Assembly: GCA_030614785.1 (NCBI GenBank)
Contig: JAUWTJ010000039.1
Span: forward strand, 1-37,350
Direction: 5' to 3'
Origin: Alphaproteobacteria bacterium
GTDB lineage: Bacteria; Pseudomonadota; Alphaproteobacteria; M2410
Length of the DNA stretch: 37,350 nt
The notes beneath the pieces were generated by a model that was not told where the DNA came from, searched no databases, and saw only the letters and a program-made list of their open reading frames with translations. Positions 3,904 through 21,282 of the stretch are shown here, in pieces; within the stretch, counting starts at the first letter, position 1; the number at the start of each line of letters is the position of its first letter. A program made the position numbers and the translations under genes.

Positions 3904-6123
3904 CTAGAATTTGTAGACCGTTGAAAGTCCTATGACATGAACACTGTAATCCGGCGATTGATTACCAAGACCCAGGACATAGGGGAGCGTGTCGGGGGCA
4001 ACGCCGTCGTAGGCATAGTCTTCAACAAGAAGGTCCTCATACTTATACCGCAAGCGCAGGGTCAAATCCCTGGTCCACTTGTAGTCCGCCCGCAAATCAA
4101 GGCTTACGAGATCCGTGGTCACGTCGGGCAAAGGTGCCACAGAGTTCAGTGTCCCTGCCCAGATATCAAATGAAGTCTCAGCCTGGAGCAAGGTGGCATC
4201 AAGTGTAATATCAAGCTTGTTCTTGACGGCTGCCCACTCGAAGCCCAGCCCCATAGAACGGGCCTTGTCGTCGGTTTCGACACTCCAGCCACGCCCGGCA
4301 AAGTCATAGAGATCTGTTCCCGGACGGCTCGCAACACCAAACTGCTCGAAGACCCGATCGTCAATTGTCACCCAGCCATGAGCGCTGAATGTTTCGCTCG
4401 CTGTATAGGAGCCGTCGACGGTAACGCTATAGCCGGCGCTTTCGGTCAGCCCGACGATTGTTTCGCTATAGTCATCGTTGGTGTAACGACCGGTGAGACC
4501 AATGACCCATTTATCGTTCGGCATGAAGTTGGCGGCACCGCGAACCTTAAGCTGATCACGATCCGCCATATAGAATTTGCGAACCAGGGGGTGGTTTTCA
4601 AATTCGGCGTCGGGATCCGGGCCGAGAAAGTCCGGCGTATGGCTGGCAACAAACTGGGCGTTGTGGTCATAGGTCGAGCCTTCACGCATCGCATAGCTCA
4701 CAGCCGCCCAACCCTGCATTTCCGGCGTCGGTGTGAACCTGAGCTTGCCTTCAATACGATGTTCCTTTGTCTTGGAAACCTCGGAGAAGGTGCGCGTGAT
4801 CTCTTCATAGTCATAGCTGCCGGTCAGCTTCATATTGTCTCTGAGCCGGTAGCCTGCATCCAGCTCGAACAGATGTTGCGAGCGGCTGTAGGGCATATTG
4901 ATGCGAGCATTACTGGTATCAATCGTGCTCTGATCACCGGAGTCGCTATGAACCACGATGAACACATCGCGCGGGGTCTGGTTGTCCCGATCTTCATAGC
5001 GGTAGCTTGCCCTGACATTGAGTTTGGGGCTCGGCCGCGTCGTCACAGCCAGGTGTGCCAACATGGTATTGATCTCGCCGTCAAGTGAAGTGCGTGGCAA
5101 GGGCGTCGCAACGACCAGACCGGGGTTCACTGTATAGTCCTGGAAGGTCTGGTCCTGCGTCATGCGGCTGTAGGAAAGGTTGGCTGTAGCTCTGGTGGTA
5201 TTATTCATCAGATATTGCCCGGAAAACCGAATGCGGTGTGCCTCGTTGTCCGGCGGCAAGCCAATCGAGCCCATACCGCCTGGATAAGAGGCGACAGGTG
5301 CCCAGCGGGTGCTGGCATAGGCGTTATCGAATGTGAGCGACCTCAGGTCATTGTCGAACATCGACAGATTGTAGCTCACCAGGAACTGCCCCTTCTTTCC
5401 GGTATAACCAATCGACGCGTCGAATGTATCCGTCTGGTAGTCGATCGGCTCGGGAACGATGACGGCGGCAGGATTTCCTCCGCTGCTGCCAAAGATCGCG
5501 GCAATGGTCCGCGACCCATCTTTCAACTCGCGTCTGAAGTCTGTCTTGATGGTCCAGTTTTTTGCCGGCAAAAGAGAAAAGCCGCCGGAATATCTCTCGC
5601 GTGAATGTTCAACAGTAATGTCGCGCAAACTGGTCGCCAGCTCAGTCATTTCGGACGTGTCCCGGTCACCGGGGACCCAGCCGGCGGGCAGGGTCATAAG
5701 CGATCCGTCATTCGCGAAGAGATAGGGCGTCCGGGCATCATCAATCATGTATTTCGGAATTTGGTCGAACCCGAAATGAACATTGAATAAACCCTGTTGG
5801 CCATATTCAAATTGCAGCGCGCCGGATGAAAGGCCTAAATCTGTTCCCCGCAGGGTGAAATAGGTGGTGTCCGGATCATCAAACGCGGATCTCTTTTGCA
5901 AGTTGATATTACCGATGACGAAGGCACCTTGTTCCTCAAGCCCGGTGTATTCACCAAATTTGAAAGAATCTTCATTGACATGGCCCAAACCCAGTTCGAC
6001 CTCATTGACATATATGGGGGTTGGCGCTTCATCAAGAACATCATCCTGCGCCAGGGCATTTTGGGAAAACGCAAGGACTGTGGCCATTGCTGTCATTCCG
6101 ACTAACTTTTTCCTAAACATCAT
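3904..6123 (-). CDS. mtrB: MtrB/PioB-family outer-membrane beta-barrel of a porin-cytochrome conduit
   Basis: Forms the outer-membrane barrel that sheaths the decaheme cytochrome encoded just upstream, so that electrons can cross the outer membrane. The 739-residue protein starts with a signal peptide ending near ALAQ (residues 22-25). It continues as alternating polar and aromatic strands typical of a large barrel and ends in STVYKF, a terminal aromatic residue expected for BAM-dependent insertion. No cysteine is visible, so the N-terminal CXXC of Shewanella MtrB is missing. The length is close to MtrB (about 700) and PioB (about 800). The start is one of two adjacent ATGs (6121-6123, or 6118-6120) behind AAAGAGGTG; an open frame extends to 6408 but has no protein character. 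It lies 50 bp after mtrA, clearly one operon. The family call is firm; the direction of electron flow is not known. Confidence 0.85.
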   Translation of the reverse strand: MMFRKKLVGMTAMATVLAFSQNALAQDDVLDEAPTPIYVNEVELGLGHVNEDSFKFGEYTGLEEQGAFVIGNINLQKRSAFDDPDTTYFTLRGTDLGLSSGALQFEYGQQGLFNVHFGFDQIPKYMIDDARTPYLFANDGSLMTLPAGWVPGDRDTSEMTELATSLRDITVEHSRERYSGGFSLLPAKNWTIKTDFRRELKDGSRTIAAIFGSSGGNPAAVIVPEPIDYQTDTFDASIGYTGKKGQFLVSYNLSMFDNDLRSLTFDNAYASTRWAPVASYPGGMGSIGLPPDNEAHRIRFSGQYLMNNTTRATANLSYSRMTQDQTFQDYTVNPGLVVATPLPRTSLDGEINTMLAHLAVTTRPSPKLNVRASYRYEDRDNQTPRDVFIVVHSDSGDQSTIDTSNARINMPYSRSQHLFELDAGYRLRDNMKLTGSYDYEEITRTFSEVSKTKEHRIEGKLRFTPTPEMQGWAAVSYAMREGSTYDHNAQFVASHTPDFLGPDPDAEFENHPLVRKFYMADRDQLKVRGAANFMPNDKWVIGLTGRYTNDDYSETIVGLTESAGYSVTVDGSYTASETFSAHGWVTIDDRVFEQFGVASRPGTDLYDFAGRGWSVETDDKARSMGLGFEWAAVKNKLDITLDATLLQAETSFDIWAGTLNSVAPLPDVTTDLVSLDLRADYKWTRDLTLRLRYKYEDLLVEDYAYDGVAPDTLPYVLGLGNQSPDYSVHVIGLSTVYKF

Positions 6124-6173
6124 TGCACCTCTTTTTCTGTCTGTTGTGCATATTTCTTGATTGCGAATGTCTT

Positions 6174-7118
6174 CTACCGCGTCAACCGTGTGCCGGACGG
6201 GTGGTTTGACCCGTGTACTTTCGGGTGACAATTCATGCAATCCTTGCCGAGGACACGAGCATTGGGGCTGGCACCAGCCAGGCCCGTACCGCTGTAGAGT
6301 GTTCCCGGATGGTAATTTTCCTGATGACATTCCTGACACAGATAGGGCGTGCGAGCCTTCAGCAGACGTGTCAGATTTGACCCGTGCGGTGTATGGCAAC
6401 TTGAGCAATCATCACGAACCGGCGCATGTTCCCAAAGGAAGGGGCCGCGTTTTTCGGCGTGACAACCATAGCAAGTGTCATTGACAGATATTTCTTTCAG
6501 GAGTTTGGGGCCAGCGGAGCCGTGGGAATTGTGACAATCCGAGCAAGTGACCTTGCCCTCCTCGATCGGATGGGTTGACCGACGGTGGGAGTCGGCGCGC
6601 TGCTCAACATGGCAAGTGTAACAAACTTCAGGCTGGGTCTTTTTGACAAGGATCGAATCCCTGGCTGCGTGGACATCATGACACGATGCGCAGGACGTAT
6701 CTGCTGCCTGATGCTGACTGCCGGTCCAGTTCATCCTGACACCGCCTTCGTGGCAGCCAAGGCAAACCTCATTTTGCTGGTCCACCGGAGTTGCCGAATT
6801 TGCTCCGAAAACAACAGCGGGAAGTGGCCGGATTTCTGACTCTTCGACCTTTTTCATGTGTTCCGGGCTGGCACCGTGACAGCTCTCGCAATCATGCGCG
6901 GCAAACGGCGTACGCCCATCCGCCCGCTGTGCGTGCGGTGTTTTGAGAAATTTTGCGACAGGACTCTCGTCGTCGCTATGACATTTGAGGCAAGCTTTCT
7001 CACCTCTCTTTGCGTAGCCTGGGTCGGTCTCTTCGGCGCCAGCATATCCTGACGCGAAAATCAAAACAATCAATCCGACCAGAGACACCATCATTGAGTA
7101 TCGTGTTTTAATATTCAT
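6174..7118 (-). CDS. mtrA: Decaheme c-type cytochrome, MtrA/PioA/DmsE family
   Basis: A periplasmic decaheme cytochrome that carries electrons between the periplasm and the outer-membrane barrel MtrB. The 314-residue product has a signal peptide ending near residue 28 (GYAGA) and exactly ten CXXCH motifs. Their first cysteines are at 43, 77, 119, 143, 166, 192, 216, 238, 261 and 294. Number and length match Shewanella MtrA (about 330 residues, ten hemes). Further histidines between the motifs can supply distal ligands. The ATG at 7116-7118 is chosen because it places the signal peptide at the N-terminus. It overlaps by 11 bp the end of a truncated NapC-like reading frame, so translation may be coupled to that relic. 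Heme attachment would depend on the Ccm proteins encoded at 22038-26932. No gene for an extracellular MtrC or a PioC is present nearby. Confidence 0.92.
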   Translation of the reverse strand: MNIKTRYSMMVSLVGLIVLIFASGYAGAEETDPGYAKRGEKACLKCHSDDESPVAKFLKTPHAQRADGRTPFAAHDCESCHGASPEHMKKVEESEIRPLPAVVFGANSATPVDQQNEVCLGCHEGGVRMNWTGSQHQAADTSCASCHDVHAARDSILVKKTQPEVCYTCHVEQRADSHRRSTHPIEEGKVTCSDCHNSHGSAGPKLLKEISVNDTCYGCHAEKRGPFLWEHAPVRDDCSSCHTPHGSNLTRLLKARTPYLCQECHQENYHPGTLYSGTGLAGASPNARVLGKDCMNCHPKVHGSNHPSGTRLTR

Positions 7119-7402
7119 GATTCTGTCTTTCTTTCCATAGTGGCGTGCGTCTTTCATCGCTGAGCGACTTGTAGTGAACTGTGTCCCGGTACTCGACATA
7201 AGTCGTACCTTCCATTTCGTGGCGGGAAACGCAAAAGTCCATTGTTTGAGAGTATTGTATGAAGCTTGCGAGGGTGCCGGACGTAAACATTCCCAAAAGG
7301 ACTGATCCGACCGCAGCAAGTGCAACGACCTTCATCGTTGCCTACTCCCGCAACAGCCTGCGGGTCCACTCCGCAAAATCTATGAACGCTTTTCGTTGCC
7401 AT
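7108..7402 (-). pseudogene. Degenerate NapC/NirT-family tetraheme quinol dehydrogenase gene
   Basis: An inner-membrane NapC/NirT/CymA-type protein would normally pass quinol electrons to MtrA. Here only the first quarter survives. The frame from ATG 7335 reads a membrane anchor (residues 2-26), then FCVSRHEM and YVEYRDTVHYKS, matching the first-heme region of the family. It then runs into 18 unrelated residues and a stop inside the mtrA start. The heme site is CVSRH: codon CGC (7222-7224) instead of TGC, one transition away. Upstream, the frame is cut by TAG at 7342-7344. Reading past that stop gives a plausible N-terminus (FAEWTRRLLRE), which itself would need a frame change to reach the ATG at 7402 with its AAGGGA ribosome site. 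Hemes 2-4 are absent. The family call comes from motif order; the lesions are seen directly. Confidence 0.65.
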
Positions 7403-10911: not shown

Positions 10912-11104
10912 TCAAGCCTTCAGCGACTGAATTGTGATCCGCCAGCGTTGCGAGCCCCTGGCAAGTGCGACGTTGCGTCTCGTGCAAAACCTCATTTTCA
11001 ATGAATATAGGGTCGATTTTGCGCCCCGTTGATATAGTCTTTTCCAAAAGACACTTTGCCTGAAGAGACATTTGGCCAGAAGGGTGTCAGGGAAGAGACG
11101 TCTT

Positions 11105-11908
11105 ATGGATCTGCATCTTGGCGACAGGACTGCCCTCGTCACAGGTGGGTATAGAGGCACCGGCGCTGTGATTGCCAGGGTGCTTGCAGCAGAAGGCGTG
11201 CGGGTTTTGGTTCACGGGTTTGAAGCGGGCTCTCCCGATGAGATCGTCCACCAGATCCGCGACGGGGGCGGTCAGGCCGAAAGTGTTGTCGGCGACCTGA
11301 TGTCCGACGAAGGGGCCGAAGACCTGAAATCAAACATTGATGAATTGGGGGCCGGGATCGATATTCTGGTCAACAATTTTGGCCGCGCCGATCCGGCAAA
11401 GTGGTCGAGCGCCGGGACCGAGGACTGGTTGAAAGCCCTTGAGATCAATCTTCTCTCATCGGTTCGCCTCGCTAAACTTCTTGTCCCCGCCATGAAGGAA
11501 AAGCGATGGGGCCGGATTGTTCAGCTCGGGACCATCGGTTCGACCAGACCGAATGCGCAGATGCCGGGGTACTACGCCGCCAAGACGGCACTGGTTGCAA
11601 CCACTGTCAGTCTTGCCAAGGAGCTCGGCGGCACCGGCATTACCGTCAACCATGTCAGCCCCGGCCTTATCAGAACGCCAGAGGTCGAGGAAAATTTCCT
11701 GCGCTATGCCAAAAAGCATGGCTGGGGTGAGACCTGGGACGAGGCTGAGGCGCGCATCACCCAGAAATTCATGCCCAACCCGACAGGTCGCATCGCCACC
11801 CGCGAAGACATCGCGGATCTCGTGGCGTTCCTTGCCTCACCGCGAGCCGGGCATATCAATGGACAAAACATTCGCGTCGATGGTGGTGCCGTCGACATAG
11901 TAGGTTAA
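11105..11908 (+). CDS. Short-chain dehydrogenase/reductase (SDR)
   Basis: A 267-residue classical-type SDR, probably NAD(P)-dependent, oxidising or reducing a hydroxy/keto group on an acyl or ring substrate. It has the dinucleotide motif TGGYRGTG at 13-20, NNFG at 90-93 (in place of NNAG), and YYAAK ending in Lys160, so the active Tyr is 156. Thirteen residues before Tyr156, where the active-site Ser normally sits, I read Thr143; Thr can serve but is unusual. The C-terminal GQNIRVDGG is typical. An in-frame TTG at 11072 gives a longer version, but ATG 11105 matches the domain start. It is 15 bp ahead of the acyl-CoA dehydrogenase genes and surely co-transcribed, so it probably acts in the same beta-oxidation-like pathway. 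Confidence 0.88.
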   Translation: MDLHLGDRTALVTGGYRGTGAVIARVLAAEGVRVLVHGFEAGSPDEIVHQIRDGGGQAESVVGDLMSDEGAEDLKSNIDELGAGIDILVNNFGRADPAKWSSAGTEDWLKALEINLLSSVRLAKLLVPAMKEKRWGRIVQLGTIGSTRPNAQMPGYYAAKTALVATTVSLAKELGGTGITVNHVSPGLIRTPEVEENFLRYAKKHGWGETWDEAEARITQKFMPNPTGRIATREDIADLVAFLASPRAGHINGQNIRVDGGAVDIVG

Positions 11909-11923
11909 GAAAGAGGGGGCCTT

Positions 11924-13084
11924 ATGGCCGACAATGCGTTTTTCCGTTTTGATCCTTTTGATCTGCCGCCCGAAGCAGAAGCCGTGCGCCCGAAAATCCG
12001 CGCCTTCATGAAAGGGGCGCTCGCTGGCGCCGGTGACAAGTTTCGCGGCCGCACATGGTCCGGGTATGATGCGGAGTTCTCCCGCAAGATGGGCGAGGCC
12101 GGATATCTTGGGATGGTGTGGCCGAAGAAATACGGCGGCCATGAGCGTACAGCGCTGGAGCGCTATATTGTCCTGGAAGAGACCCTGGTTGCCGATGCCC
12201 CGACCGGCGCTCACTGGATCGGAGATCGTCAGAGCGGCCCGATGTTGCTCAACTTTGGAACCGAAGAGCAGCGTCTCAATTACCTTCCCAGGGTAGCTCG
12301 CGGCGAGATCTTCTTCTGCATTGGTATGAGCGAACCCGATTCAGGATCTGACCTTGCCAGCGTCAGGACCAAAGCCGAAAAGGTTGATGGTGGCTACATC
12401 GTCAATGGCCGCAAGGTCTGGACCTCGAATGCCCACAAGGCCGATTACATGATTGGTCTTTTCAGAACGTCGACGGACCCCGATGATCGTCATAAGGGGC
12501 TGACCCAGTTCATCGTTGATCTGAAAAACACCGACGGGATCACCATCAGACCAATCCCGGACCTCACCCAGACGTCCCATTTCAATGAAGTCACCTTTAT
12601 TGATGCCTTCGTGCCCGATGATGCCCTGGTCGGGGAAAAGGGTAACGGCTGGAGCCAGGTCTCGGCGGAACTTGTCTATGAGCGGTCAGGACCCGAGCGC
12701 TTCCTGTCCTGTTATTCTCTGATCAAGGGCGCCATCGATCGGGTTGGACCCAATCCGGATCGGATGCAGAAAATCGCCATCGGCAAACTGGTATCCCATC
12801 TTGTCACATTGCGCCGCATGTCTATTTCTATCGCTGGCATGTTGCAGGAGGGCTCCAACCCTTTGCTTGAAGCCAGTGTCGTCAAGGATCAGGGCGCGCT
12901 CTTTGAACAGTCCATTCCACACATCATCCGCGGGATTATTGAACTTGAACCAGCGGTGGGGACCGGTGATCAGTTTGCTGAACTTCTGGCCTATCTGATG
13001 CAGACAGCGCCGTCATTTTCGATGCGCGGCGGAACCCGTGAAATCCTGCGCGGCATCATCGCCCGCGGTCTTGGGCTGAGGTAG
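11924..13084 (+). CDS. Acyl-CoA dehydrogenase, larger subunit of a probable pair
   Basis: A flavoprotein that introduces a 2,3-double bond into an acyl-CoA thioester. The 386 residues show CIGMSEPDSGSDLASVRTKAE (about 132-151) for FAD and substrate binding, GRKVWTSNAHKADYMIGLFR after it, and a C-terminal MRGGTREILRGIIARGLGLR, all hallmarks of the family. AGAGGGGG precedes ATG 11924. A second, shorter homologue starts 11 bp after its stop. Adjacent long and short acyl-CoA dehydrogenase genes are the pattern of heteromeric enzymes such as those acting on steroid side chains in actinobacteria, so the two may form one enzyme. The actual substrate cannot be read from the sequence. Confidence 0.9.
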   Translation: MADNAFFRFDPFDLPPEAEAVRPKIRAFMKGALAGAGDKFRGRTWSGYDAEFSRKMGEAGYLGMVWPKKYGGHERTALERYIVLEETLVADAPTGAHWIGDRQSGPMLLNFGTEEQRLNYLPRVARGEIFFCIGMSEPDSGSDLASVRTKAEKVDGGYIVNGRKVWTSNAHKADYMIGLFRTSTDPDDRHKGLTQFIVDLKNTDGITIRPIPDLTQTSHFNEVTFIDAFVPDDALVGEKGNGWSQVSAELVYERSGPERFLSCYSLIKGAIDRVGPNPDRMQKIAIGKLVSHLVTLRRMSISIAGMLQEGSNPLLEASVVKDQGALFEQSIPHIIRGIIELEPAVGTGDQFAELLAYLMQTAPSFSMRGGTREILRGIIARGLGLR

Positions 13085-13095
13085 GGGAAATAACC

Positions 13096-14133
13096 ATGAA
13101 CGAACTCACACATATCATTGAGCAAACCGCAAACGGTGTCTTTGCGGACAACGTCACGCAGGACATGATGGCCGCGCTCGAAGACGGCAAGCTGGATCAG
13201 GCTCTGTGGCAATCGATTGAAGACGCCGGCCTCACGAAAGTGCTTTTAAGCGAGGATGAAGGCGGCGCTGGCGGAACCTGGCTCGATGCCGAAGTCGTGC
13301 TGCGCGCTTCCGGCCGCCACCATGTTCCGGCGCCCGTGGGCGAAGCGGTCGCCGCTTACTGGGTCCTGGCGTTAGCGGGTCTTCCAATTCCCGAGAGCGG
13401 CGTGCTGACATGGGCCATGGGCATTGAGGGAGGCGACGCGCTTGATCTCACGAGGGCGCCGTGGGCAATTGAAGCCGATCATGTGCTGGTCTGGTCCGAC
13501 AAGGGCAAACTTCATCTTTTCGGCAAGCTCGAAGGTCTGACAGCGGGCAAGAATATGGCCGGCGAACCGCGCGCCTCCGGCAAGATCAAAATCGCCGATG
13601 CAAAACACTCCGGCAATCTACCGGCATCGCTCAAGGGGCTCGACCCGATGGCGCTTGGCGCGGCTGTTCGTGCGGTCCAGATGTCCGGCGCGCTTGACGG
13701 TGCGCTCCACATTTCGGTGAATTACGCGACCGAACGCGTTCAGTTCGGCAGGCCGATTTCAAAATTCCAGGCGATCCAGCAACAACTGGCTCTGATGTCA
13801 GGCCATGTGGCGACATCGGTTCGCGCAGCGGGTGCTGGCTGTGAAGCTCTGGCACGCGATCCTTCCTCGGCCGGGTTTGATATAGCAACAGCCAAGGTGC
13901 GTAACAGCGAAGCCGTGGAGATCTCGACCAGCGTCGCCCACCAGGTTCATGCCGCCATCGGCATCACATTCGAATACGGCCTTAATTTCTTCACGCGCCG
14001 TCTGTGGTCATGGCGTGATGAATTCGGTTCGGAAAACCTTTGGGCCGAGAAAATAGGGGGCGCTCTGGTTGCCCAGGGCGGTGACGCGCTCTGGGAAAAT
14101 GTGACGGCAGGCATGCTCTCTCTTGAGGCGTGA
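13096..14133 (+). CDS. Acyl-CoA dehydrogenase-like protein, smaller subunit
   Basis: A 345-residue member of the acyl-CoA dehydrogenase fold, shorter than typical enzymes (about 380). The N-terminal helical part is present (LSEDEGGAGGTW). The central beta domain lacks the usual SEPDSGSD signature. The C-terminal helices read ATERVQFGRPISKFQAIQQQ and then HAAIGITFEYGLNFFTRRLW. That pattern resembles the non-catalytic or half-site partner in heteromeric acyl-CoA dehydrogenases; this is inference from length and missing motif. AGGGGAAAT lies just before ATG 13096. It is in one operon with the SDR and the larger homologue, and is followed after 90 bp by a DUF4188 gene. Confidence 0.85.
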   Translation: MNELTHIIEQTANGVFADNVTQDMMAALEDGKLDQALWQSIEDAGLTKVLLSEDEGGAGGTWLDAEVVLRASGRHHVPAPVGEAVAAYWVLALAGLPIPESGVLTWAMGIEGGDALDLTRAPWAIEADHVLVWSDKGKLHLFGKLEGLTAGKNMAGEPRASGKIKIADAKHSGNLPASLKGLDPMALGAAVRAVQMSGALDGALHISVNYATERVQFGRPISKFQAIQQQLALMSGHVATSVRAAGAGCEALARDPSSAGFDIATAKVRNSEAVEISTSVAHQVHAAIGITFEYGLNFFTRRLWSWRDEFGSENLWAEKIGGALVAQGGDALWENVTAGMLSLEA

Positions 14134-14223
14134 TCGTTCAAACCGGATGTGATCACGGACACTTGGCGACCGGGCCGCAGTATTCTAGACTTGTTCCAGA
14201 ATTCATCAGCCCGGGAGACTACC

Positions 14224-14697
14224 ATGATTATCCAGGACCGTATGGCGCCGAAGGTAGATCGCGAATTTGTGCTCTTTCTCATCGGGATGCGGATCAACAA
14301 GATCCACAAGATGGCTAAATGGTTGCCGATCTTTGCATCCATGCCCCGGATGATCAGGGAACTCGAAGCCCAAAAGGATCTCGGATTGATGCATGCCCGT
14401 TTCCATCCCGGGTTTCGCAATTTCTTCCTGATTCAGTATTGGGAAAGCTGGGACAAGCTCATGGCCTACGCGCATGATTCAGATCGCAATCACCGCCCCG
14501 CATGGACTGAGTTTTCCAAAAACGTTGGTTCCAATGGCGACGTTGGCATCTGGCACGAGACCTACACGGTCAAGCCCGGCCAGGTCGAGGCGATTTACGG
14601 CAACATGCCGCAATACGGATTGGGCAACGCCTTCGATCTCGTGAAAGCCGAAGGAAAAATGAAAGGCGCCGCCGAACGCATGACGGCGGATGGCTGA
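14224..14697 (+). CDS. DUF4188-family protein
   Basis: A 157-residue soluble protein resembling the DUF4188 family, whose members have a ferredoxin-like alpha/beta-barrel fold akin to small monooxygenases; no activity is established. Recognisable stretches are FLIGMRINKIHKMAKWLP near the start, FLIQYWESWDKLMAYAHD in the middle and IWHETYTVKPGQVEAIYGNM near the C-terminus. GGGAG six bases before ATG 14224 decides the start over the longer frame that opens at 14149. It lies 90 bp after the acyl-CoA dehydrogenase pair, so it may be the last gene of that operon. Confidence 0.78.
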   Translation: MIIQDRMAPKVDREFVLFLIGMRINKIHKMAKWLPIFASMPRMIRELEAQKDLGLMHARFHPGFRNFFLIQYWESWDKLMAYAHDSDRNHRPAWTEFSKNVGSNGDVGIWHETYTVKPGQVEAIYGNMPQYGLGNAFDLVKAEGKMKGAAERMTADG

Positions 14698-15482: not shown

Positions 15483-16070
15483 TTATATCAAAGTAGATTT
15501 GTCCTCTTCGAACCTGGCTTCGTTTGTAAACAGATAGCTCTGGCCACCAGCGGCGATCCACTCGTCGGTGTTTTTCGCTTTGTTGTCGATGAGTAAGGTT
15601 TCTGATCGCGAGATGTTTCCATCCAGACGAGACAAGGCCACATCGCACAGGGCGGCTTTGCTGAGTGAAACTTCCTCCCATGATGTTACGATCACCGGGA
15701 ACGTATCGTTGAGTTGATAGTGCGGGGCAACGACGTAGCTGAAGATATCCGGATTAATCGTCACGATGGCCTGGGGCAGGGGACACTCCCGAGCGAAGGC
15801 CATCACTGTGTCGAAGAATATGATGTTGCGACAGGCTTTCAGCATGTGAGCCAGGACCAGATCTGAAGGAGCAGCGATATCACGGCCAAGAGCCTCGCTC
15901 ACCGCCACCATCTCGATCCGGCCCAGATTCCAGCCATCGGCCAACTTACTGTCACCCATTGCCCGACGATAAGCCTCCGCCCATCCAGGGAAACCTTCCA
16001 GGGGTGCCTGCATCCAGTTCTCATCAACCAGTGTGTCCCCAAAATCCCACAGAATGGCCTTGATACTCAT
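15483..16070 (-). CDS. HAD-superfamily hydrolase
   Basis: A 195-residue haloacid dehalogenase-superfamily protein, most likely a phosphatase or a dehalogenase. The N-terminal motif is ILWDFGDTLVDE: nucleophile Asp9, with the second acidic residue at Asp12 (DFGDT) rather than the usual DXDGT, a variant seen in some members. Motif II is probably the Thr in AIVTINPD, Lys138 (LSKAALCD) is motif III, and LLIDNKAKN with Asp162 is motif IV. It has a helical cap insert at about 20-95. ATG 16068-16070 begins the domain; an open frame extends upstream to 16148 inside the preceding gene. It follows that halohydrin dehalogenase gene by 4 bp, so the two are co-expressed. Whether it takes halogenated acids or phosphates cannot be decided from the motifs. 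Confidence 0.8.
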   Translation of the reverse strand: MSIKAILWDFGDTLVDENWMQAPLEGFPGWAEAYRRAMGDSKLADGWNLGRIEMVAVSEALGRDIAAPSDLVLAHMLKACRNIIFFDTVMAFARECPLPQAIVTINPDIFSYVVAPHYQLNDTFPVIVTSWEEVSLSKAALCDVALSRLDGNISRSETLLIDNKAKNTDEWIAAGGQSYLFTNEARFEEDKSTLI

Positions 16071-16074
16071 CGCC

Positions 16075-16818
16075 TCACGCCCATCCGCCAGCGAACGGTA
16101 TAACCTGGCCTGTGACAAATCCTGAATGATCACCGGCCAGAAAGGCAATGAGTGCGGCGGCTTCCTCCTGCTCGCCGAGACGGCCCAGCGGGATGCGCTT
16201 GAGGATCTTTTCGGTGACGCCCGGCTTTGCCATTAACTCCGGTGGATAATAGTCCGGGTTTGCAAGATAGTTTGGCGCGACGGCGTTTACTGAAATGCCG
16301 TGTGGGCCGAGCTCCATGGCCAGTGATTTGATCATGCCGTTAATGGCGCTGCGCGCAGAGGCGTAGACCGTGTAGTCGGGAATGCCGCTGATCGGACCGG
16401 CTGATGTGACAAAGATGACGCGGCCGCTGCCTCGCTCTTTCATATGCGGAACGAGCGCGCCGGTCAGTTCAAAACCTCGAAACACAAGGCGCTCAAACGC
16501 GGCGCGTAAGTCCTCCGGCTTAATTTCCTCAATCGGCAGGCGCGGGGCGGGGTAGGCGTCATTGTTGATGAGGACATCCACCTCGCCAAGCCTCTTGAGC
16601 GCTTCTCCGGCAAGCGCCTTCGCCTCGGTCGCTTCGGCGATCAGAGCGTCCGGATTTTCATCGACGAAAACCTGGCGTTTTTCAGAATCCTGAAAGTCAT
16701 CGTCATGGCACAGTACTTTTGCGCCCAGTTCAACAAGGCCTTTCGTCAATCCCGGTCCTGCAAAGTGCAGGACATCAGTTATAAGGATTTTCTTGCCCTT
16801 GAGTGAAGCGCTGATCAT
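16075..16818 (-). CDS. Halohydrin dehalogenase (SDR-derived)
   Basis: Halohydrin dehalogenases turn vicinal haloalcohols into epoxides with release of halide, and can open epoxides with other nucleophiles. They descend from SDRs but do not use NAD(P). The 247-residue product carries both diagnostic signatures. T-X4-F-X-G is at Thr14, Phe19 and Gly21, replacing the Gly-rich dinucleotide motif. S-X12-Y-X3-R is at Ser139, Tyr152 and Arg156, with Arg in place of the SDR Lys. NNAG is degraded to NNDA. The stretch APNYLANPDYYPP at 181-193 resembles the HheC halide-pocket region (NYL then YFYP). AGGAGGT 5 bp before ATG 16818 fixes the start over the frame opening at 16839. The YihY gene ends 34 bp upstream and a HAD gene starts 4 bp downstream. 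The family is well supported; the natural substrate is unknown. Confidence 0.85.
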   Translation of the reverse strand: MISASLKGKKILITDVLHFAGPGLTKGLVELGAKVLCHDDDFQDSEKRQVFVDENPDALIAEATEAKALAGEALKRLGEVDVLINNDAYPAPRLPIEEIKPEDLRAAFERLVFRGFELTGALVPHMKERGSGRVIFVTSAGPISGIPDYTVYASARSAINGMIKSLAMELGPHGISVNAVAPNYLANPDYYPPELMAKPGVTEKILKRIPLGRLGEQEEAAALIAFLAGDHSGFVTGQVIPFAGGWA

Positions 16819-16852
16819 GAGAACCTCCTGGTCTGCCATAGTTATATGGCGT

Positions 16853-18214
16853 TCATTTTTTTGTTATTGTGACAACGGGTTCCGGCGCAAGCGGCTGCGT
16901 TTCCAGCGCCAGATCCTTGAGCGTCAATGAGCTGCCAACCTCACTCTTCGACGTCAGGAACTCATGAAGAAGACTGGACTGATCACCCTCAAAGCGCCTT
17001 TTGCGCCTCGAATATCCCGCCTGCCGGAAATACTCCAGCGCCTCATCGATCCGAATGGTTTCAAAAGGCCCAGCCGGGATAAGAGTGGTCGGCTCACCGG
17101 CGGTTTCGCTGAGATACCCGCCTTTTTTGAGGAGGGTGAGGGTGCGATCAAGTGCCTGCCACGGCACTTTGAGGGTGCGGTTCAGAGTGTCGAAGGTGAA
17201 CGCTGATGCGCCTGAATAAAATCTTTGCCCGACAAGCTGCAGGACCCTGAGAGCGAGACGCTCCTGATTGGCGATGGAAAGTTCAAGCTCGATGGGTTTA
17301 TCGACGATATAATCGGGATGCTGAAGAAGATAACTACCGTGCGCGCCGATCAGGACGACCATCCAGCTCAAGAACTGCCAGAACATGAACAGGACCAGCG
17401 AGGCGAAGGCCGAATAGATGGCATCGTATCGGCCCGAAGAAACTACGGCGTAGGAAAATAGCGAACCGATCAACATCCATGCGGCTGCAGAGATGACGCC
17501 GGCCCATAGCGCCGGAGCCAGCTTGACCCGCGTATGCGGCATGACGAAAAACAGAAAGGAAAAGCCAAGAACGGCAATGGTGAACGTCATCCACCGACCG
17601 GCCTCGGCTACAAAAACCCCGAGCAAGGGGACGTTTTCCATCGCGGCGACAATGCTGTTGCTTGCGGCGCCGGCGGTCAGAGCCAGCGCTCCGAAAGCCA
17701 GAACAGGTCCAATGGTGATCATCAGAAAATAGGTCTGGAGCCGGTCGCGCAGATTACGTCGCTCTCGCACATGCCAGATTTCGTTCAGTGCCGCTTCGAT
17801 CATCTGCAAGGCGGAGAGCGCGGCAAACAAAAGCACGGCGATGCCGGCAAATCCGAGACCTTCAATTTGCATGCTATCGACCAGGCGCAGCGCCTGATCG
17901 ACGACCTCGCCGCCCTGCTCACCGAGAGGCTCCACCAGACGCATCAAGACATCGCGAAACCGGTTATGGATGCCAAAGGATTTGAGGAGCGAGAAGGTGA
18001 AAGCCAGGATTGGCACGGTTGATATCAGGGTCAGATAGACCAGCCCCATGGCGCGCAGGCGAATCTGGCGGTCCTGAAACTTGCGGATGAGCAGAATACA
18101 GGTCCGAAGTAGCTGGAGAAAGAAGGATTCAATTCTCCTCAAGTTGGAAAGATCGACAGCCCAGATGATATTATGGAGCCTTGAGAGGGCTTTTCCTGGA
18201 TTGAGAGAGGCCAT
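16853..18214 (-). CDS. YihY/BrkB-family inner-membrane protein
   Basis: A polytopic inner-membrane protein of the YihY/BrkB family (once misnamed RNase BN), of unknown transport or structural role. From the chosen start the 453 residues hold about six hydrophobic segments between residues 50 and 310. They begin with the family's LRAMGLVYLTLISTVPILAF region and include the DAIYSAFASLVLFMFW segment. The last 140 residues form a soluble domain with winged-helix-like character (FDTLNRTLKVPWQALDRTLT). The start is uncertain: ATG 18214, ATG 18250 and TTG 18277 are all in frame. CGGAGA lies rather far (13 bp) from 18214, and the others have no ribosome site. It is read divergently from the unknown gene at 18393 and may share a transcript with the halohydrin dehalogenase. 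Confidence 0.82.
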   Translation of the reverse strand: MASLNPGKALSRLHNIIWAVDLSNLRRIESFFLQLLRTCILLIRKFQDRQIRLRAMGLVYLTLISTVPILAFTFSLLKSFGIHNRFRDVLMRLVEPLGEQGGEVVDQALRLVDSMQIEGLGFAGIAVLLFAALSALQMIEAALNEIWHVRERRNLRDRLQTYFLMITIGPVLAFGALALTAGAASNSIVAAMENVPLLGVFVAEAGRWMTFTIAVLGFSFLFFVMPHTRVKLAPALWAGVISAAAWMLIGSLFSYAVVSSGRYDAIYSAFASLVLFMFWQFLSWMVVLIGAHGSYLLQHPDYIVDKPIELELSIANQERLALRVLQLVGQRFYSGASAFTFDTLNRTLKVPWQALDRTLTLLKKGGYLSETAGEPTTLIPAGPFETIRIDEALEYFRQAGYSRRKRRFEGDQSSLLHEFLTSKSEVGSSLTLKDLALETQPLAPEPVVTITKK

Positions 18215-18392
18215 ATGTCTGCAGAATCTCCGAAAAATGTTCCAAAGCATACTATAGATCGAAAAGTGACACTTCAAATCAAGGAGTTATAAACATAAAA
18301 CCCCTAGAGTTTGGCGGTAATTGGATGTCGGGATCAATTGGTGCATATCCGCCCGGCTATTCGCACGGCGGAACTGGGGCTGTATTTTAGCG

Positions 18393-19829
18393 ATGGACGC
18401 ACGCAAGAAAGATAAACTCGAAACCTTTCTGGGCCAAATCCGGGAGCACGACCTGGAGAAACTGGCCAGTGCGGTCGAGCTCGACAGGCTTGGTGGCGGC
18501 ACGGACCTGCCACATGAAACCCTGATGGACGCCATGCGTCCGGCATTGCGCGAAAGCGCGAACTATTCCCGCACTCCAACTCTGGAACGTTTGTTCTGTG
18601 TAGCGTTTGAAGATTTGATCAATGCGCTGCCAGACAGACGCAAGCAAATCGGCCGTATCGGTCGCTGGTCTCTTCGTCCAATGTGGACGTGGTTGAAGAC
18701 CGGGATCCTTAGTGAAGAGCTTGCCGGGATCGAACTCGAAATCAGTGCTCTGATTGCCGAGGACAAACTGGATGCGGCAAGGGCGCCAGTTCGTGAGCTG
18801 CAAGTGGCCGCTGGCCAGATCATGCAAAAAGAACTGGCAAAAGTAATCCAAAGTGATGCCGCTTTCGAAGCGTTCTGCCATCAGCTCGGCGGAGCATCAA
18901 TTGTGGCAGATCTTCGTGACATGGCCATGTGTCTGGAAGTTACCGACTGGATCGATGAAATTCAAAGTCGATTTGAACGACCTCTGCTCGGCTTCAACGA
19001 GGGAGACGCGGAGGCTTTTTACAGCATCTATCAAAGGTTCCGCTCGGAGAAGCCAAAACACTCACAATATGCTCTGCTGGTTTTAATGGGACGCATGGCG
19101 CGTCCATGGGAAATTCTGACTCTCATTTCGAAACTGGAACAGGATTATGACGACCTTTCAATTGCGCCGGAAGACCAGGCTGCGGTGAATGAGTTGTTGC
19201 TCGATGACGTGGATGTCATCGGTATTTCTCTGGTTGGACTTCATCCCGAAGATGTTGATGCCGGTGAACTTCTGGAGAATCTCAATCTCTTTGTGCAAAT
19301 AACAGGCGGGGTTTTACGCAGTGTCGGCTTGCATCGGAATGAAGACTGGGGCCAGCGCTTCAAAACGACTCGCGACGCGGTCGCGCAGCAAATGGGTGCT
19401 TTTGTCGAAGCCATGCCCGGCCTCATTCTCAAAGCCCTGCCGGTCAAAAAGACCGGCGGTTATGGCGTTCGCATTCCACGCGTCCCTGATACCAGTGTTG
19501 CGCCCTCGCCGGACGCTGTAAACACTTCGGTGGACTTGACCAAACTTTTTGCCGAGTTGCGGTTCTATGCTGACCAAACAGGGTTTGCTGCTGCATATTC
19601 CCGCGCAGCCGGAGAATTTGATCACAGCTACGAGCTGTTCAAGTCAGATATCCTTGACCATATTCGCGCAACATCGGGCGCAGAGCGTCAAAATGCAGAA
19701 GCCTTTGCAGAAGTTCTCGCGCAAATCGGCGAGGAATATCGCGGGACCGTAGAGGCCGATATGATCCGCCGTCGCTCCGCCACCGCTGCAGAAGAGGGTT
19801 TCGAGGTTTCCGAAATTGTAAACGGATAG
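18393..19829 (+). CDS. Conserved-looking 478-residue protein of unknown family
   Basis: I do not recognise this protein. It is soluble, rich in predicted helix and acidic residues, and shows no signal peptide, membrane segment or catalytic signature. Notable stretches are LERLFCVAFEDLINALPDRRKQIGR at about 53-77, AMCLEVTDWIDEIQ mid-protein and LFVQITGGVLRSVGL at about 292-306. ATG 18393 is taken as start because the upstream extension (from TTG 18321) has no protein character; the ribosome site is weak. It is followed, 151 bp later and in the same direction, by a short Hsp70-like gene, so it may be a client or partner of that ATPase. That link is by position only. Codon use looks like that of its neighbours. 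Confidence 0.75.
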   Translation: MDARKKDKLETFLGQIREHDLEKLASAVELDRLGGGTDLPHETLMDAMRPALRESANYSRTPTLERLFCVAFEDLINALPDRRKQIGRIGRWSLRPMWTWLKTGILSEELAGIELEISALIAEDKLDAARAPVRELQVAAGQIMQKELAKVIQSDAAFEAFCHQLGGASIVADLRDMAMCLEVTDWIDEIQSRFERPLLGFNEGDAEAFYSIYQRFRSEKPKHSQYALLVLMGRMARPWEILTLISKLEQDYDDLSIAPEDQAAVNELLLDDVDVIGISLVGLHPEDVDAGELLENLNLFVQITGGVLRSVGLHRNEDWGQRFKTTRDAVAQQMGAFVEAMPGLILKALPVKKTGGYGVRIPRVPDTSVAPSPDAVNTSVDLTKLFAELRFYADQTGFAAAYSRAAGEFDHSYELFKSDILDHIRATSGAERQNAEAFAEVLAQIGEEYRGTVEADMIRRRSATAAEEGFEVSEIVNG

Positions 19830-19980
19830 ACATTCCCTCTGTCATCCTGTAAAACCCGCGTCCCTTTTGGATGCACTGGCGCATCTCTTTCTGGCATTGC
19901 TGTGGTTCAGATCTCACCGGTCAAGCAGTTGAAAATTGACGTGGGCGGGCTCTGCAACCAAACGGATGCGGAGGCGAAAA

Positions 19981-21282
19981 ATGACAGATCAGATTTATGT
20001 AGGTGTCGATTTTGGCACCACAAATAGCGCTGTTGCCATTGCTAGGGGCACAGGTTCGTCGAGCCTTGTGCCGCTCACGCAGAGCGGCGAGGCGACTTTC
20101 AGGTCCATTCTCTTTTTTGATGCAGATGAACGCATCGCCGGCGGCAAGCCGAGATCCTGGGTTGGCGATCAGGCGATTACAGTCGCGCAGGACCCGAGCT
20201 ATGAAGGCCGATTGGTTCAATCGATCAAGTCCTATCTGGCCAACAGCGGTTTTCGGGGGACGACGATTTTCAATGCTCGTTACTCCATCGGTGATCTGGT
20301 CGGGCTCATATTGAACCGGTTGAAGACAGGTCTCGACGAAACCTGCGCCGCTGCACATCAGGGTCCGATCGTAGCGGGACGGCCCGCGCGGTTCGTCGGT
20401 CATGATGATGAAGATGGCGAGGACCTGGCACTGACCCGGCTCAGGGATGCTTACCGCTTTTCCGGGTTCGGTGAAGTCGAGTTTGAATATGAGCCAGTCG
20501 CCGCTGCCTATAAATATGCGGCGCGTCTCGATAGGGATGAACTCGTCCTCATTGCCGATTTTGGTGGTGGCACCAGCGACTTTTGTCTTCTCAATGTTGG
20601 GCCTTCGTTGAAGGCAAGGGCGGCGGAAGAGGCTGCGATCATCGCAGTCGATGGTGTCGGGCTGGCCGGCGACGCATTCGATGCGCGCATTGTGGAGAAT
20701 GCTGTTGCCGGGCGTCTTGGCCGCGTCAGTGACTACGCGGCTCACTCCGGCAAGACTCTGCCCATGCCTGGCTGGATCTATGAACAATTGAAAGCCTGGC
20801 ACCGGCTCTCCTTCATAAATTTGCCGCGTACACATGCCATCCTTGATGAGGTGATTGAGGGAGCTGCGGATCCAGGACCAATTCTGGCCTTGCAAAACCT
20901 CATTCGCAATAATCTCGGCTTCCGACTTTATACCGCAGTTGAAAAGCTCAAACATGAGCTTTCCTTCGCTGAAAGCGCCAATTTTCAATTCGCCGTCGAT
21001 CCGCTCAGCCTTGATATTCCGATCAGTCGTAGCGCCTTTGAAGGCTGGATCGCACCGGAGCTGGGGCGCATCGAAACCTGCGTTGATAATCTGCTGCAAG
21101 ATGCCGGGATCCGGCTGGATGAGGTGGAGCGGGTCTTCATGACCGGGGGCTCGGCCTTTGTCCCTGCTGTGCGCAGAATATTTGAATCACGCTTCGGCGC
21201 GGAAAAATTGACCGGCGGCGATGAACTCACATCGGTGGCATCCGGACTCGCCCTCGTGGCGCGAGATCGATATGGGTGTTAG
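19981..21282 (+). CDS. Hsp70-like ATPase without substrate-binding domain (YegD type)
   Basis: A 433-residue actin-fold ATPase of the Hsp70 superfamily. The N-terminal VGVDFGTTNSAVAIA at 7-21 is the phosphate-1 loop, IADFGGGTSDFCLLNV at about 195-210 is phosphate-2, and FMTGGSAFVPAVRR near 385-398 is the adenosine motif. The protein stops right after the ATPase fold, so it lacks the beta-sandwich peptide-binding domain and lid of DnaK. This resembles E. coli YegD, whose role is unclear. GGAGG six bases before ATG 19981 fixes the start. The DUF938 gene begins 10 bp after its stop, so these two are co-transcribed. The superfamily is certain; function is not. Confidence 0.88.
   Translation: MTDQIYVGVDFGTTNSAVAIARGTGSSSLVPLTQSGEATFRSILFFDADERIAGGKPRSWVGDQAITVAQDPSYEGRLVQSIKSYLANSGFRGTTIFNARYSIGDLVGLILNRLKTGLDETCAAAHQGPIVAGRPARFVGHDDEDGEDLALTRLRDAYRFSGFGEVEFEYEPVAAAYKYAARLDRDELVLIADFGGGTSDFCLLNVGPSLKARAAEEAAIIAVDGVGLAGDAFDARIVENAVAGRLGRVSDYAAHSGKTLPMPGWIYEQLKAWHRLSFINLPRTHAILDEVIEGAADPGPILALQNLIRNNLGFRLYTAVEKLKHELSFAESANFQFAVDPLSLDIPISRSAFEGWIAPELGRIETCVDNLLQDAGIRLDEVERVFMTGGSAFVPAVRRIFESRFGAEKLTGGDELTSVASGLALVARDRYGC

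Follow-up and report, generated by a model that had tools for sequence, protein, structure and literature searches.

The question raised by this locus is whether a gene that would ordinarily be filed among the short-chain dehydrogenases (SDRs) encodes a halohydrin dehalogenase (HHDH). HHDHs are cofactor-free enzymes that interconvert halogenated alcohols and epoxides, working as homotetramers with the halide bound in a pocket. Chiral alcohols and epoxides are produced with their help, yet pipelines for annotation call them short-chain dehydrogenases. The DNA comes from an Alphaproteobacteria bacterium (M2410; GCA_030614785.1, contig JAUWTJ010000039.1), and the window, i.e., the whole stretch analyzed, covers positions 1 to 37,350 (37,350 nucleotides). 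A preliminary description had placed an open frame at 16075-16818; the frame is there, on the minus strand, which that description had left out. Since AGGAGGTTCTC precedes ATG 16818, we preferred this start over the in-frame ATG at 16839.

16075..16818, minus strand: gene very probably encoding an HHDH, 247 aa, with the A/C-type lineage as best guess; ATG at 16818, stop at 16075; assigned from motifs, PDB matches, alignment, tree and fold matches
16819..16829, minus strand: ribosome-binding-like sequence AGGAGGTTCTC, directly upstream of ATG 16818

HHDHs are recognized by T-X4-F/Y-X-G and S-X12-Y-X3-R, where SDRs carry T-G/A-X3-G/A-X-G and S-X10-14-Y-X3-K (PMC4989007, PMC11976700). The two signatures taken as HHDH-defining in the preliminary description agree with these published definitions, and all six residues (Thr14, Phe19 and Gly21; Ser139, Tyr152 and Arg156) were found at the numbers given. 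Its further claim, that the NYL and YYP region resembles HheC, also held, as P-N-Y-L-A-N-P-D-Y-Y-P-P aligns with P-N-Y-L...Y-F-Y-P of HheC.

16756..16779, minus strand: motif 1 codons, T14-D-V-L-H-F19-A-G21; nucleophile pocket, in place of the SDR glycine-rich cofactor motif
16351..16404, minus strand: motif 2 codons, S139-X12-Y152-X3-R156; catalytic triad with Lys replaced by Arg
16240..16275, minus strand: PNYL/YYPP loop codons, P182-N-Y-L-A-N-P-D-Y-Y-P-P193; aligned with HheC PNYL...YFYP

In an alignment of the protein with six HHDHs from the PDB and three SDRs encoded by its own genome, the classical SDR hallmarks were missing: TDVLHFAG stands for TGxxxGxG and YASAR for YxxxK, and the active-site Asn is gone. 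Thus, the NAD(P)-binding glycine motif has been lost together with other SDR hallmarks, and both HHDH motifs are present. Further changes of the HHDH type are NNAG to NND and PG to P-N-Y-L, followed by D-Y-Y-P-P. When the letters of the protein were shuffled 20,000 times, both motifs appeared jointly in 0.005% of cases, and none of the ordinary SDRs used for comparison, whether from the window's genome or from other sources, carries the pair. A candidate second HHDH in the genome (G000:C69, L002) was rejected; its motif 1 is a chance TVAANYGG within an ordinary SDR carrying TGGTRGIG.

A sequence search of the PDB returned HHDH entries for all of its top 14 matches. The best was 6a41 (48% identity, E 3.2e-67), followed by HheC (about 1e-41), HheA (about 1e-39) and then 7b73, 8xxb and HheB, with the first ordinary SDR appearing at E 4.2e-25. 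Identity was 37% to HheC, 34% to HheA and 35% to HheD2 (7b73), and 26 to 30% to the three ordinary SDRs that the genome itself supplied. The A/C-type HHDH profile scored 241 bits (187 without 6a41) vs 157 for the SDR sample. The top 23 fold matches of a predicted structure, a weak single-chain model built from six sequences (pLDDT 61), were likewise all HHDHs. Pfam and NCBIfam, on the other hand, offered generic SDR models only, the NCBIfam scores lying far under the curated cut-offs (best 126.8 vs 222). This bears out the expectation that the protein would usually be annotated as a short-chain dehydrogenase; automatic annotation would therefore miss the HHDH.

The tree comprised 40 alphaproteobacterial relatives, eight gammaproteobacterial ones, ten SDRs and eight PDB references that cover HheA, HheB, HheC and HheD (HheE, HheF and HheG being outside the set). 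Grouping with SDRs would have told against the proposed identity; the protein instead falls among the HHDHs, which a 100/100 branch separates from the SDRs. Within the HHDHs, it falls on the A/C side and not the B/D side, the inner branches being weak (28-39). An AU test with the protein held beside the SDRs, which asks only about an outermost-HHDH position and not about SDR identity, did not reject that position (p-AU 0.58). Since the inner branches are weak and the outermost position was not rejected, the A/C lineage is a best guess only, the protein probably lying near its base. Taken as a whole, these observations make us confident that the gene encodes an HHDH, with the A/C-type lineage as its likeliest place. 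It adds a member to a known and already mined family and does not represent a novel type of enzyme.

By analogy with HheC, we infer dehalogenase activity and the following mechanism. Tyr152, its pKa lowered by Arg156, would take the hydroxyl proton of a vicinal haloalcohol while Ser139 would hold the substrate oxygen; the alkoxide would then displace the halide to yield the epoxide. The halide would occupy the former NAD(P) pocket, with Thr14, Phe19 and the P-N-Y-L loop lining it. In the reverse direction, small anions would open the epoxide, and the reaction would proceed without a cofactor. HHDHs are assumed to act in the detoxification or degradation of haloalcohols (PMC11536340), and by the same analogy the present enzyme may detoxify or degrade haloalcohols or epoxides.

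Two genes flank the HHDH gene on the same strand.

16853..18277 (longest ORF), minus strand: upstream gene for a YihY/BrkB-family inner membrane protein, 34 nt from the HHDH ATG
15483..16070, minus strand: downstream ORF of 195 aa with a HAD-like N-terminus (LWDFGDT), starting 4 nt past the HHDH stop

The preliminary description had spoken of an operon, a term that comes down to the same-strand spacing (34 nt upstream, 4 nt downstream); because the three genes lie close together on one strand, their co-transcription is plausible. A functional link between the HHDH and these neighbors was rejected. At 37 relative loci, the genes up to 6 kb away from the enzyme were compared all against all; synteny was at the family level only, the relatives adjoin unrelated genes, and neither the YihY gene nor the 195-aa ORF recurs beside the enzyme. 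The 195-aa ORF itself had no match in Pfam, NCBIfam or the PDB and no relatives in 372 alphaproteobacterial genomes or in plasmids. It was also rejected as a haloacid dehalogenase, given the DFGDT at its N-terminus and the fact that none of the genome's genes reaches the HAD type II cut-off. No epoxide hydrolase gene was found near the HHDH gene, a point that counts against the assignment; the host genome has an EHN-type epoxide hydrolase on another contig (G000:C33:596), and this host type, the only one tested, had no match within about 8 kb at the 37 relative loci. With neighbors that vary from one relative to the next, the setting of the gene gives little information on its substrate.

Other genes of the window were noted in passing. 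At 3904-7325 (minus strand), an MtrB/PioB-family outer membrane porin adjoins a DmsE-family decaheme cytochrome, an extracellular electron transfer module. At 11072-14697 (plus strand), an SDR, two acyl-CoA dehydrogenase-like genes and an af470-like monooxygenase stand in a row, the second acyl-CoA dehydrogenase-like gene being nearest to IpdE2 of steroid breakdown. A protein of about 480 aa, for which Pfam gave nothing even at E 10, is encoded at 18390-19829 (plus strand), directly before an Hsp70-like gene (19936-21282).

The alternative that survives best is about the natural role and does not conflict with placing the protein in this family: the protein would have the HHDH build, its natural reaction would be some other cofactor-free ring opening or closing, e.g., one in which a nucleophile other than halide reacts with a metabolic epoxide, and dehalogenation would be a side activity. 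The lack of a conserved degradative neighborhood, or of a nearby host-type epoxide hydrolase, at the relative loci speaks for it, and other physiological functions of HHDHs have not been excluded (PMC4989007). Against it, HHDH activity was confirmed for all 19 motif-bearing enzymes selected for expression in the same survey (PMC4989007), and we consider this alternative unlikely, though worth keeping in mind. Somewhat more doubtful still is the proposal that the alphaproteobacterial branch has a dedicated natural role beyond haloalcohol degradation, namely cofactor-free epoxide chemistry of normal metabolism. If true, it would explain the purpose of HHDHs in organisms without a degradative operon. 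The missing degradative neighborhood, common to the sampled relatives, is in itself a small piece of evidence on the natural role of HHDHs.

Among 385 alphaproteobacterial genomes sampled class-wide, 41 had close relatives (E < 1e-40), about one in ten, this genome counted. Three other genomes of the same family (80 to 87% complete) had none, and a phylum-wide draw gave two genomes out of 398, one of them this genome. The family had been called small in the preliminary description; it is indeed a known family, but in alphaproteobacteria the group is larger than suggested, given its occurrence in those 41 genomes. HheA3 from Parvibaculum lavamentivorans and HheA5 from Tistrella mobilis are alphaproteobacterial HHDHs characterized earlier (PMC4989007). 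Among the 40 alphaproteobacterial relatives in the tree, motif 1 is kept in 31, motif 2 in 34 and both in 28. Since some relatives are without motif residues, the group may hold other functions.

Three kinds of departure were seen. Tandem HHDH-like pairs occur in three genomes of one family, f98 (L079 7777-9249, L081 7147-8640, L084 7857-9337), where one copy keeps motif 2 and the other has lost both the aromatic residue of motif 1 (THVTASIGQ) and the catalytic Arg (Y-C-T-A-Q); this other copy is still present in all three genomes. The HheA-side relatives L082 (8190-8948), L083 (8086-8859) and L094 (7914-8873) have Pro or Ala where motif 2 normally carries its catalytic Tyr (for example SARERKPELGYAVPTTAR), and the remainder of the protein looks intact. 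Finally, motif 1 carries Trp for F/Y (T/S-X4-W-X-G) in L059 (4516-5310), L062 (8240-9019) and L091 (7804-8538), a variant that would escape the published motif search.

The loss of the catalytic Tyr or Arg in L082, L083, L094 and the second tandem copies means that decay occurs in the group, which speaks for a view of the present protein as an SDR that has decayed and no longer catalyzes a reaction, or that serves in regulation. However, it has kept all six motif residues and the P-N-Y-L/YYPP loop, its reading frame is unbroken and has a good ribosome-binding site, and we regard this explanation as highly improbable. An ordinary NAD(P)-dependent short-chain dehydrogenase, the name that the generic Pfam and NCBIfam models would give, deserves practically no credence against the missing glycine-rich motif, Asn and Lys, the sub-cut-off NCBIfam score, and the placement with HHDHs by tree and PDB matches.

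The HHDH assignment leaves one more candidate enzyme, sharing about 48% identity with the closest structure solved so far, in a lineage rich in uncharacterized relatives. Its setting differs from that on the Microbacterium sp. J1-1 plasmid NZ_CP089591.1 (L101 3485-8415), where DsrE, an epoxide hydrolase, an HheA-type HHDH and glycerol kinase (glpK) stand in a row between insertion sequences as a compact halohydrin degradation cassette; the sampled alphaproteobacterial genes, including ours, are unlike that. HheB, HheD2 and HheD8 (PDB 4zd6, 7b73, 8xxb) share motif 2 and T-X4-[FY]-X-G with our protein at 32 to 35% identity, but are shorter, are without the CHDDDF-type segment and form a separate clade (100/99). 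HheA/HheA2 (PDB 4z9f, 1zmo) have both motifs and a similar length, whereas their loop reads P-N-F-F instead of P-N-Y-L and their tree branch is distinct. HheC from Agrobacterium radiobacter AD1 (PDB 1pwx, 5kvc) is identical in T-X4-F-X-G, S-X12-Y-X3-R and P-N-Y-L. In contrast to HheC, whose chains of 254 aa run past GGF, our protein ends at GGWA without a C-terminal extension, its halide loop is three residues shorter, and no epoxide hydrolase lies beside its gene. PDB 6a41 ('dehalogenase'; 'Dehalogenation enzyme', released 2019) differs in 52% of residues and forms a separate branch among the alphaproteobacterial sequences. Nevertheless, it matches our protein over 242 residues and shares with it both motifs, the length, NND, the N-Y-hydrophobic loop and the GGWA C-terminus.
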